Shown here piece after piece: positions 50,219 through 55,417 of a stretch of DNA of 56,976 nt. The stretch lies in the IMG/VR virus record IMGVR_UViG_3300042556_002360, positions 1-56,976 of that record, one strand, 5' to 3'. The notes below the pieces were generated by a model. That model was given only the letters and a program-made list of their open reading frames with translations. It made no database searches and was not told where the DNA came from. This DNA is from a virus. The position numbers were made by a program, and so were the translations under genes. Position 1 is the stretch's first letter. Each line of letters begins with the position of its first letter.

Positions 50219-51418
50219 ATGAAATATAAATTAGAATATGTATGGTTAGATGGTTATAAACCTGAGCCAAATTTAAGAAGCAAAGTCAGAATTACTGGCA
50301 AAGAAATTAATGGATTACAAGATATACCTGAATGGGGATTTGACGGTAGTTCAACAAAACAGGCGGAAGGTTATTCTTCAGATTGTTATTTGAAACCTGT
50401 GAGAATTTATCGTAAAGATGGTAAACAAAATAGTGATACCATTTATGTTCTCTGTGAGGTGATGGATAGTGAAGGTAATCCACACAATACAAATGACAGA
50501 GCCAAATTAGATGAAGATTTTAATTTTTGGGTTGGATTTGAACAAGAGTATTTCATACGTCACGGACACAATAAACCTATTTTAGGTTTTCAAAATGGAG
50601 GAGTTATTGACCCTCAAGGAGTATATTATTGTGGTGTTGGTGGTCAGATGTATGGTAGAAACTTGAGTGAAGAACATTTGGATATGTGTTTGAATTATAA
50701 CATTGGGATTGAAGGAACCAATGCTGAAGTGGCAATCGGACAATGGGAATACCAGGTATTTGCCAAAGGTAAATTAAAATCCGCAGATGATTTATGGATG
50801 TCTCGTTATTTCCTTTACAAAATTGCTGAGAAATACGGATATGAAATTGAATTACATCCAAAACCTTTAACAAGTGGTGATTGGAATGGTTCAGGGTTAC
50901 ATACAAACTTCTCAAACGAAAGAATGAGAGAGCAGGGAGGAGAAGAATATTTCAAATCAATTTTCCAAGTATTTGAGTCAAGAGCGGATATTCATATTCA
51001 AAACTATGGTTCAGATAATCATTTGAGATTAACAGGTAAACACGAAACACAATCAATCAATAAGTTCAGTTGGGGTGTATCAGACAGAGGGGCATCAATC
51101 AGGGCACCAAAAGTTGTTGGTGAAATATGGAAAGGATATCTTGAAGATAGACGACCAGCATCCAACGGAAACCCATATAGTATTCTTAGAGTTATTTCTG
51201 ATTCATTAGATTTGGCGGAAGATTTGGATGAGACATTACATGTGATGTATGATGATATTGATACAAGTAAGTTAAGTAAAAAGTTTGGTACACTATCAAA
51301 CAAAGAATTACTTAATGAATATCAAAACGATGAAGAGTTTGAATTAGAATCTGAGATGATGGAGTCAAAGGCAAATGTCCCATTGGAAGAAATTAAATTT
51401 AATTTAAATGAAAAATAA
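50219..51418 (+). CDS. glnA: Glutamine synthetase, eukaryote-type (GSII)
   Basis: 399 aa. GSII motifs in order: WGFDGSST (39-46), GFEQEYF (metal Glu), GTNAEVAIGQWEYQ, NGSGLHTNFS (~223), RLTGKHETQSI (~269), FSWGVSDRGASIRAPK (~281) and EDRRPASNGNPY. All recognisable active-site blocks are intact. It makes glutamine from glutamate, ammonia and ATP. A phage copy could boost purine/pyrimidine nitrogen supply. Rare as a phage gene; a host origin is likely. Confidence 0.92.
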   Translation: MKYKLEYVWLDGYKPEPNLRSKVRITGKEINGLQDIPEWGFDGSSTKQAEGYSSDCYLKPVRIYRKDGKQNSDTIYVLCEVMDSEGNPHNTNDRAKLDEDFNFWVGFEQEYFIRHGHNKPILGFQNGGVIDPQGVYYCGVGGQMYGRNLSEEHLDMCLNYNIGIEGTNAEVAIGQWEYQVFAKGKLKSADDLWMSRYFLYKIAEKYGYEIELHPKPLTSGDWNGSGLHTNFSNERMREQGGEEYFKSIFQVFESRADIHIQNYGSDNHLRLTGKHETQSINKFSWGVSDRGASIRAPKVVGEIWKGYLEDRRPASNGNPYSILRVISDSLDLAEDLDETLHVMYDDIDTSKLSKKFGTLSNKELLNEYQNDEEFELESEMMESKANVPLEEIKFNLNEK

Positions 51419-52053: not shown

Positions 52054-52917
52054 ATGAAGAATTTAGAAAACATTATCAATACAATAATTAATGGAGATTC
52101 AGTTGAAGTAATGAAAGAAATGCCAAATTCTTTTGTTGATTTGGTTGTAACTAGTCCAAAATATAATGTGGGTATTGATTATGATAGTTGTGATGATAGA
52201 ATGTCCATGGAGGATTATTGGTGTTGGACTAAAGAATGGTTAACAGAGGCTTTTAATGTTTTAAAAGATGATGGTAGAATCGCAGTTAACATTCCTTATG
52301 AGGTGAATGTACAAGACAGAGGTGGTAGAGTTTTATTTATGTCTGAGTTTTGGTCAGTTATGAAATCTGTTGGGTTCCAATTCTACGGGTTGGTTGACCT
52401 TGATGAAAACTCACCACACAGAAGTAAGACCACGGCTTGGGGTTCTTGGATGAGTCCATCAAGTCCTTACATTTACAACCCAAAAGAATGTGTCATCTTG
52501 GCTTACAAGAAAGACAGAATCAAAAAGGTTAAAGGTCAACCACAATGGAAGGCTGAGATTGTAGATGTGGAACAGGAAGATGGAACGATAAAGACCAAAG
52601 CTGTTTATCAAGAAGAAGATAAGAAAGAATTTATGTCTTTGGTTTACGGACAATGGGAATATTTTGCGGACACCAAACAACAAACCAAAGCAACATTCTC
52701 GATGGATATTCCAAGTAAAGCAATTAAGATTCTTACATACAAGAATGATATTATTCTTGACCCATTCGCTGGTAGTGGAACTAGTTTGGTTGCTGCAGAA
52801 ACGTTAGGACGCAGATGGATTGGTGTTGAGTTAAGTGAAAACTATAGTAAAGTTGCAAAAGAACGAGTCCAACATTTTGTCGATTTAAATAAACAAACAA
52901 AAATAGATTTTAAGTAA
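52054..52917 (+). CDS. DNA methyltransferase (N4/N6 beta class)
   Basis: 287 aa. Catalytic motif DLVVTSPKYNVG (~29-40), a variant of T-S-P-P-Y in which Lys replaces the second Pro. SAM motif DPFAGSGTSLVAAETLGRRWIGVEL (~245-268, quoted in parts: DPFAGSGTS, WIGVEL). Likely protects phage DNA. Followed by a strong terminator. Confidence 0.85.
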   Translation: MKNLENIINTIINGDSVEVMKEMPNSFVDLVVTSPKYNVGIDYDSCDDRMSMEDYWCWTKEWLTEAFNVLKDDGRIAVNIPYEVNVQDRGGRVLFMSEFWSVMKSVGFQFYGLVDLDENSPHRSKTTAWGSWMSPSSPYIYNPKECVILAYKKDRIKKVKGQPQWKAEIVDVEQEDGTIKTKAVYQEEDKKEFMSLVYGQWEYFADTKQQTKATFSMDIPSKAIKILTYKNDIILDPFAGSGTSLVAAETLGRRWIGVELSENYSKVAKERVQHFVDLNKQTKIDFK

Positions 52918-53839: not shown

Positions 53840-53871
53840 TTTGACTAAATGAGAATTTGGTTGTACCTTTG
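53840..53871 (+). promoter_or_regulatory. Promoter P1 of the RNA region
   Basis: TTTG at 53840-53843, 20-bp spacer, TACCTTTG at 53864-53871. Drives the leader and the tRNA. Confidence 0.8.
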
Positions 53872-53877
53872 TAAAAC

Positions 53878-54008
53878 AATTGAGATGAACGTCTCAAAAA
53901 ACCTAAGACGAGAGTCTTAAAAAAAATGTCCCACAGATTTGACTATTTGAAAAAATATGATTAAGTTTGTGGGACTTAATCTGAAAGTTCTTAAAAATAT
54001 TAATACAT
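53878..54008 (+). ncRNA. Structured leader RNA upstream of the tRNA
   Basis: No ORF with support. Hairpins: GAGA/TCTC (53882-53895), AAGAC-GAGA-GTCTT with a GNRA loop (53905-53918), and an 8-bp stem GTCCCACA/TGTGGGAC (53928-53935 with 53968-53975). Likely processed away from the tRNA; a separate function is possible. Confidence 0.4.
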
Positions 54009-54095
54009 CGCAAGTTAGAGTAGAGGACAAACTCATTGGGCTCATAACCCAAGGTTCCGCAAGGGACACGTCAGGTTCGAATCCTGCACTTGCAA
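54009..54095 (+). tRNA. Initiator-type tRNA-Met (anticodon CAT) with extended variable arm
   Basis: 87 nt by hand-folding. Acceptor stem CGCAAGT/ACTTGCA has an unpaired C1-A72, D-stem GAGT/ACTC, anticodon arm TTGGG-CTCATAA-CCCAA (anticodon 54043-54045), T-loop TTCGAAT. The C1-A72 mismatch and three G-C pairs next to the anticodon loop are hallmarks of bacterial initiator tRNA. The variable region is 18 nt and can form GTTCC-GCAA-GGGAC, a class II-like arm not normal for tRNA-Met. The outermost T-stem pair (T-C) is mismatched. CCA is not encoded (CAA follows). Confidence 0.8.
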
Positions 54096-54182
54096 CAAAT
54101 CGGAGCACGATAAGATGATATATAAGGAGTGCTTAACCCATACACTGATAACTTCAGCTATAAGGTTTCCAGCGAGTCATCT
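54096..54182 (+). other. Non-coding stretch after the tRNA with a closing 7-bp stem
   Basis: AAGATGA (about 54111) pairs with TCATCTT (54176-54182), just before an A-run. No T-arm, so not a tRNA. An alternative pairing AGCAC/GTGCT competes. Could be the 3' trailer of the tRNA transcript. Confidence 0.3.
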
Positions 54183-54205: not shown

Positions 54206-54237
54206 TTTGACAAATCAAAAAGTTTGTATTACCTTTG
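54206..54237 (+). promoter_or_regulatory. Promoter P2 of the RNA region
   Basis: TTTG at 54206-54209, 20-bp spacer, TACCTTTG at 54230-54237. Nearly identical context to P1 and P3. Confidence 0.8.
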
Positions 54238-54339: not shown

Positions 54340-54371
54340 TTTGACAAATTGAAAAGTTTATCTTACCTTTG
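54340..54371 (+). promoter_or_regulatory. Promoter P3 of the large RNA
   Basis: TTTG at 54340-54343, 20-bp spacer, TACCTTTG at 54364-54371; predicted start near 54378. Confidence 0.85.
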
Positions 54372-54377
54372 TAGACC

Positions 54378-55407
54378 AATCAAGAAAAGGTTAACGTTGT
54401 TGTAAAACTATGGTTCCCTTTTCTCAAATTGAAAATTCGTTCTTTGAATATAAGATATTTATCCATTCAACGGATAGTAACCCCACAAAACTCTTAGGAG
54501 TCTCCAAGGTTAACTTGATGTTGATAAAGTAAATCGGCCGTATATGGTCGTTAAATAAACCACGAAAGTGGGATAAAGTGAATCTGTTGTGTTAACAGGT
54601 TTGCGGTTTGTAAAGTCTTAGGACCTTATGAACTCAAGTATACAAGCGAGATATCATCTTTGCTTTAGTAACCGAGGGTAACACTGTAGGAGAAGAGTTG
54701 AGGTGACCAAGCGATGTGGGTCGTTTGGTTGAGGTGGGAACACCAATAAGAATAACTCGTAGGAACTCTGTAAGAACTGTAACTTCCAATTACACAATTG
54801 CGGCTTCCAATACGATAGTGGACTTAAAACCGAAAGGTATGATTTTGTACAGGTGGTGCTGTTATTATCCCTACTTTGAATCTACCAAGGTTCATCGTTT
54901 GAAGTAAACTTGGCATATGGAGATGGGGACATTTCAAGGAGTAGTTTAGTATTCTGTTGTTCAAAAGATAACGGAGCTTAAGGTGGACCACTACTTCTAA
55001 CATCCACGACACAAAACTTAATATTACACTGTTAATGTAAAAATTAATTAAAAAATAATAAGCAAAAGTGTCCATCAGGTTTTGATGAAAGTTGCCTACA
55101 CAGTCACGGGTTGTCCGTGGCACGAGAGAACCGCAAGTTTAATCGTATTTTTACCAAAGACCTCTAAGGAGTCGAATCCTGAGTCAGTTCGCAAGATTGA
55201 AGAGAGTTGAGTAATAAAAGAGTAGTTGAAACCTCAAGGAGTGATTGGTCTAACCAATCGGCAATGAGTGGTATTCCTCAAAAGGGAATGGATACGAGGG
55301 GAACCCATAATACCTCAAAAGTCACTTACAAAAACTTGTAATCTCAGAGTTTTTTAGCCAACTATGAAAAACTAAATTCCCCGCCCCTAAAAAGGTGGGG
55401 TTTTTTA
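54378..55407 (+). ncRNA. Large structured non-coding RNA (about 1,030 nt), GOLLD/ROOL-like candidate
   Basis: Bounded by promoter P3 and the terminator at 55377-55407, with no gene-like ORF on either strand. Visible hairpins: CCAC-GAAA-GTGG (54560-54571), CTGTT/AACAG (54584-54598), CCAAGCGA/TCGTTTGG (54707-54728), GGTG-GGAA-CACC (54733-54744), ACC-GAAA-GGT (54829-54838), TTACA/TGTAA (55024-55040), CATCA/TGATG (55073-55087), CACGG/CCGTG (55105-55119), GATTGGT/ACCAATC (55243-55259), and ATTCC/GGAAT (55273-55289). The last two are enclosed by CCTC (55232) and GAGG (55296). Size, GNRA loops and a tRNA neighbour fit giant ornate phage RNAs. Family membership is not shown. Confidence 0.6.
55377..55407 (+). 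terminator. Terminator of the large RNA
   Basis: CCCCGCC / GGTGGGG stem (one G-T pair), 8-nt loop, then TTTTTT. Confidence 0.85.
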
Positions 55408-55417
55408 TTTTATAGTA

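Follow-up and report, generated by a model that had tools for sequence, protein, structure and literature searches.

A GOLLD RNA behind a candidate rRNA-type boxA leader in a phage with a probable Bacteroidota host

The stretch at positions 54340-55411 of the window (the whole 56,976-base virus record analysed here, with a phage primase, SbcC/SbcD-like proteins and a phage sigma factor) is identified from its sequence as encoding a GOLLD RNA. GOLLD is an established type of giant RNA from phages, and its copies form hollow RNA cages. The transcription unit covers about 1,030 nt of the + strand, from promoter to terminator (Table 1), and carries a candidate boxA leader that the reader behind the original prediction had missed and that was found in the follow-up analysis. 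This leader is a new part of GOLLD in this group of Bacteroidota phages, and no paper naming both GOLLD and boxA was found in the literature searched. The cage structure of GOLLD has been solved; the boxA leader, which has been conserved in a large group of Bacteroidota phages, adds a sequence-level clue to its synthesis and a link to host rRNA antitermination, and its conservation suggests how a phage may make so long an untranslated RNA.

Table 1. Coordinates of the GOLLD unit and of the neighbouring tRNA gene in the window
Feature	Position	Strand	Remarks
tRNA-Met(CAT)	54009-54096	+	ARAGORN, Rfam; own promoter-like site 53938-53969
Bacteroidota-type promoter	54340-54371	+	TTTG 54340-54343, N20, TACCTTTG 54364-54371; A-rich tract before
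Leader hairpin	54383-54424	+	AGAAAAGG/CCTTTTCT; follows the start site and precedes boxA; boxB-like position
boxA (candidate)	54439-54447	+	GTTCTTTGA; rRNA-operon antitermination signal by word identity; between promoter and RNA
GOLLD 5' domain	54527-54936	+	includes GAAA hairpin 54556-54575; covarying pairs, homology to Herod GOLLD
GOLLD 3' domain	54937-55350	+	Rfam RF02032, model 1-416
Variable A/U-rich linker	54999-55060	+	matches unpaired variable stretch of Rfam model
J13/15 half of B7	55062-55063	+	pairs with 55133-55134 in L20
L20 loop GCAA, J13/15 partner (B7)	55133-55136	+	covariation, co-switching
L21a loop GTCGAA (B8)	55171-55176	+	self-pairing CG at 55173-55174
L21b loop CGCAA (B9)	55190-55194	+	self-pairing GC
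Intrinsic terminator	55379-55407	+	stem 55379-55400: 7 bp, 6 G-C pairs; then T run

The Rfam check proposed in the original prediction was carried out with cmscan. The GOLLD model (RF02032, curated cut-off 150 bits) matched positions 54937-55350 of the + strand over its full length (model positions 1-416) with 321 bits and an E-value of 3.4e-91 (1.1e-92 in a short search), while ROOL, OLE and HEARO gave no Rfam match in the window, for which only GOLLD and a tRNA were reported. The prediction had allowed for a GOLLD- or ROOL-type RNA or for a new class. Its GOLLD part stands; ROOL, which is likewise a giant cage-forming phage RNA often found near tRNAs but unrelated in sequence to the window RNA, was rejected for want of a match, and the full-model match means that this is not a new RNA class. 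That the RNA belongs to a new giant class merely resembling GOLLD could be argued from its 5' half, which lies outside the Rfam model, but the full-model 3' match and the alignment of both domains with the GOLLD of Acinetobacter phage Herod (E 2e-63 with the full profile) make this extremely improbable. The Herod alignment starts just after the leader, so other GOLLDs have the 5' domain too, and what is specific to this clade is the leader. The layout is that of GOLLD, with a variable 5' and a conserved 3' domain, a variable linker and a length above 800 nt, and so is the setting on a virus record near a tRNA gene.

Relatives were reached from several directions. Following the neighbouring DNA methylase gene (52054-52917) led to 50 phage records, 27 of which hold a full-length GOLLD (309-331 bits), and the conserved 5' GAAA hairpin pattern was found in at least 120 phage contigs of up to about 290 kb; those loci that were checked fit the profile of the whole RNA. 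The same pattern had no match in genome contigs, so that neither a prophage copy nor a host genome came to light. Further loci were added from a 3' pattern; one 3' scan returned no matches, and a looser version returned 68 loci, mostly chance hits, with GOLLD in one of the 50 records checked. Two huge phage genomes, LR756502 and LR745206, both carry GOLLD and share 65-70% identity with the RNA. Among the matches listed, 109 distinct loci were compared, near-identical records having been left out of some of the databases searched; the alignment was built from 102 full-length sequences, of which 91 remained after redundancy was removed (identity 69% on average, 55% at the lowest).

Evolutionary evidence from this alignment independently supports the cage contacts as well as the 5' half, which lies outside the Rfam model. 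Covariation was assessed with an R-scape-like script of our own (not R-scape itself), using a G-test with APC and, as the null, 20 alignments generated by evolution along the tree. In the 91 sequences, 57 pairs were significant at E<0.05; in 54 of these, Watson-Crick or G-U combinations account for over 85%. Both halves of the RNA are covered, with 20 significant pairs in the 5' half (54535-54930). The consensus fold contains 33 helices, in line with the many local hairpins first noticed; the alignment-based structure was used because the single-sequence fold mispairs several helices. Three GNRA-closed hairpins had been claimed: GNRA-type loops were located at 54564 (GAAA), 54832 (GAAA), 55133 (GCAA) and 55191 (GCAA), but the two with GCAA are the counterparts of kissing loops in GOLLD. 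The proposed nested long-range CCTC/GAGG stem had to be abandoned, as these segments (55296-55301/55311-55316) pair locally, in a hairpin of the consensus fold. A coding region was rejected: the longest open stretches in the 91 relatives are of about the same length as in shuffled sequences (median 85 versus 77 codons, maximum 136 versus 159), which agrees with the lack of a credible open reading frame noted over some 1,030 nt. No conserved protein and many covarying pairs were thus found on two points that the original prediction had offered for its own refutation.

The GOLLD of env-38 forms a 14-mer cage by cryo-EM (Kretsch et al. 2025, PMC12286853), in which L20 kisses J13/15 of another chain (contact B7) and the L21a and L21b loops self-pair across the two half-shells (B8 and B9; PMC12286853). 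The env-38 helix names were mapped by order and description, and the contacts are here known from sequence alone. The pair 55063-55133 is significant (C-G 44, G-C 41, A-U 5), and the dinucleotides of J13/15 and L20 switch together among GC/GC, GG/CC, GA/TC and TC/GA. In nearly all relatives the L21a dinucleotide is palindromic, mainly GC, CG or AT, and the GC of L21b is kept. The inter-subunit kissing contacts B7, B8 and B9 thus appear to be kept in this GOLLD, and the pair 55293-55341 is consistent with the L27-J24/26 contact that has been reported. A 14-mer cage is likely, as expected from the GOLLD family. By the same analogy the linker would be expected to lie inside the cage; in env-38 it is disordered (PMC12286853). 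No tRNA was found inside the equivalent of this linker among the 109 loci compared.

The near-consensus promoter recognized at the outset (TTTG, a 20-nt spacer and TACCTTTG) is well conserved: the pattern TTG-N16-23-TAnnTTT[GA] was found within the 130 nt preceding boxA in 80 of 90 relatives, against 2.1 expected. The terminator, also described correctly, was detected in 35 of 87 relatives against 0.4 expected. The leader hairpin (fold z -2.15) recurs in the leaders of 61 of 81 relatives as a stem 5 bp or longer, with 35 different stem sequences. One recurring form, GATTTGAAAC..GGTGATGAAAGATACTCGG..TCAAATC, lies upstream of boxA in 13 loci (L221, L191, L242, L431 and others). Three features support a Bacteroidota host, as first proposed: the type of promoter, a boxA of Bacteroidota type and a SprB-repeat protein.

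None of the searches that built the set of relatives contained boxA. The element was found as GTTCTTTRA in 88 of the 91 sequences, against 0.58 expected from dinucleotide shuffles; two of the three exceptions read GTTCTTTGT, and L002 has none. The distance from boxA to the domain anchor varies between 38 and 131 nt, and this variation, together with the 35 stem sequences in the leaders, argues that the invariance of the 9-mer is not merely due to recent ancestry. Elsewhere in the window the word also occurs, at the level of chance for a 9-mer.

The same word heads the rRNA operons of the host phylum. GTTC[TA]TT[GA]A was found in 73 of 112 Bacteroidota 16S leaders, mostly 80-200 nt before the 16S gene, whereas GTTC[ACT]TTGA was present in 3.7% of random 300-nt controls; the remaining 39 leaders had none of the boxA words searched. 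At position 8 the G/A ratio is nearly equal in the GOLLD set and the 16S leaders, while position 5 is always T in GOLLD and T or A in rRNA leaders. The leader thus has the boxA word of the rRNA leaders of the host phylum, just after the promoter, and follows the order of a Bacteroidota rRNA operon leader, in which a TAnnTTTG promoter is followed by GTTC[TA]TT[GA]A and a long untranslated RNA; the product is rRNA there and a phage cage RNA here. In gammaproteobacteria, GYTCTTTAANA serves as the boxA; it is a binding site of NusB/S10 and acts against Rho (PMC5725501).

Not all GOLLDs have this element. BoxA is absent from the GOLLDs tested in Acinetobacter and Mycobacterium phages and in the divergent phage contig L418, so it is not needed for GOLLD generally, and boxA as a universal GOLLD feature was rejected on its absence in Herod, Weiss13 and L418. 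Both domains of the window RNA align with the GOLLDs of Herod (MW316732), LR756502 and LR745206; the Herod GOLLD differs in lying inside a tRNA array without boxA, and boxA is present in LR745206 but not in LR756502. With the env-38 GOLLD the window RNA shares the full 3' domain, the two-domain layout, a similar length, the variable linker, B7/B8/B9, the phage origin and a Met-tRNA upstream. It differs in its boxA and hairpin leader behind its own Bacteroidota promoter, and the word boxA is absent from the env-38 paper (PMC12286853).

We also scanned phage contigs in reverse, using the promoter end and boxA as the query and no GOLLD sequence. Of 100 distinct sites, 75 precede GOLLD and 7 precede tRNA arrays, 11 are truncated where the contig ends, one precedes an ORF and 6 are followed by something else, four of the latter with less than 500 nt of contig remaining. 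The promoter and boxA leader therefore marks operons of stable untranslated RNA in these phages. The tRNA arrays headed by it include those of L450, L462, L467, L483, L500 and L447; a further conserved stretch without ORFs, common to L447, L483, L484 and L507, lies before the tRNAs.

These results bear on two other roles that boxA might have. RNAalifold pairs it with a conserved AAGGAG stretch (55234-55241) in an 8-bp helix with 93% of cells paired, so a structural role is conceivable, in which GTTCTTTGA would contribute to the structure of the RNA in this GOLLD clade instead of being a site for Nus factors. However, the helix has no significantly covarying pair. Its partner stretch is conserved in the Rfam consensus too, and likewise in L418 despite the lack of boxA there; it is apparently the linker for which pairing with L22 is described in env-38 (PMC12286853). 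Given further that boxA stands at a variable 38-131 nt from the domain anchor and that its word also heads tRNA arrays without GOLLD and host rRNA leaders, we regard this role as unlikely. Slightly less likely again is a decoy, by which abundant GOLLD would titrate NusB-S10, damp host rRNA synthesis and free resources for the phage. The conservation of boxA and the rise of GOLLD expression during lysis in another phage (PMC12286853) would suit it, but boxA lies directly after the promoter and before the RNA, like a cis-acting leader, outside the cage domains, and precedes phage tRNA arrays too.

We consider it probable, with good confidence, that the window encodes a GOLLD of a Bacteroidota phage, transcribed as a separate unit with the layout of a small rRNA operon, antiterminated through boxA and assembling into a cage; parts of PMC4807359 are cited in support. 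A strong host-type promoter, the leader hairpin and boxA precede about 0.9 kb of folded RNA and the terminator. Host NusB-S10, with NusA/NusG/SuhB, would bind boxA, and the Nus complex would shield the untranslated transcript from Rho and so allow processive synthesis of the full 1-kb RNA. The NusB-S10 complex could perhaps also aid folding of the RNA, as for rRNA, and the finished RNA would assemble by itself into a 14-mer cage as in env-38. Most speculatively, the cage might hold or sequester components of translation (tRNAs, ribosomal subunits) late in infection. A broader version, in which these phages operate their stable-RNA genes (GOLLD and tRNA arrays) in imitation of rRNA operons and NusB-S10-SuhB, the ribosome-building machinery of the host, also folds and assembles the cage, is offered only tentatively and seems rather doubtful; if true, cage formation would be tied to ribosome biogenesis.

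Several observations concern the surroundings of the unit. Four promoter-like sites of the design TTTG-N20-TAnnTTTG occur within 530 bp (53840-53871, 53938-53969, 54206-54237 and 54340-54371) and precede, in order, a hairpin pair, the tRNA-Met, a short stretch and GOLLD, with an A-rich tract before most of them. The hairpin pair consists of two strong adjoining hairpins at 53872-53935, directly after the promoter (fold z -4.1), and is possibly a small RNA; it has no Rfam match. Met-CAT is the commonest neighbouring tRNA in the relatives, and the tRNA in the window, with its CAT anticodon, has a long variable arm, which is unusual for tRNA-Met or tRNA-Ile. The phage gene at 50219-51418 contains both the N and C domains of glutamine synthetase. 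Among the other loci, a phage-encoded tmRNA is found in two GOLLD-bearing contigs (L455, 3921-4312; L235, 362-778), and a pistol ribozyme (L419, 837-912, - strand) precedes a divergent GOLLD 3' domain by about 360 nt. In L235, L294 and L473, a second boxA-led stretch (GAAACAGTCTAGGTCCGTAGGGCTACTG...) is located about 300 nt upstream of the leader of GOLLD itself.
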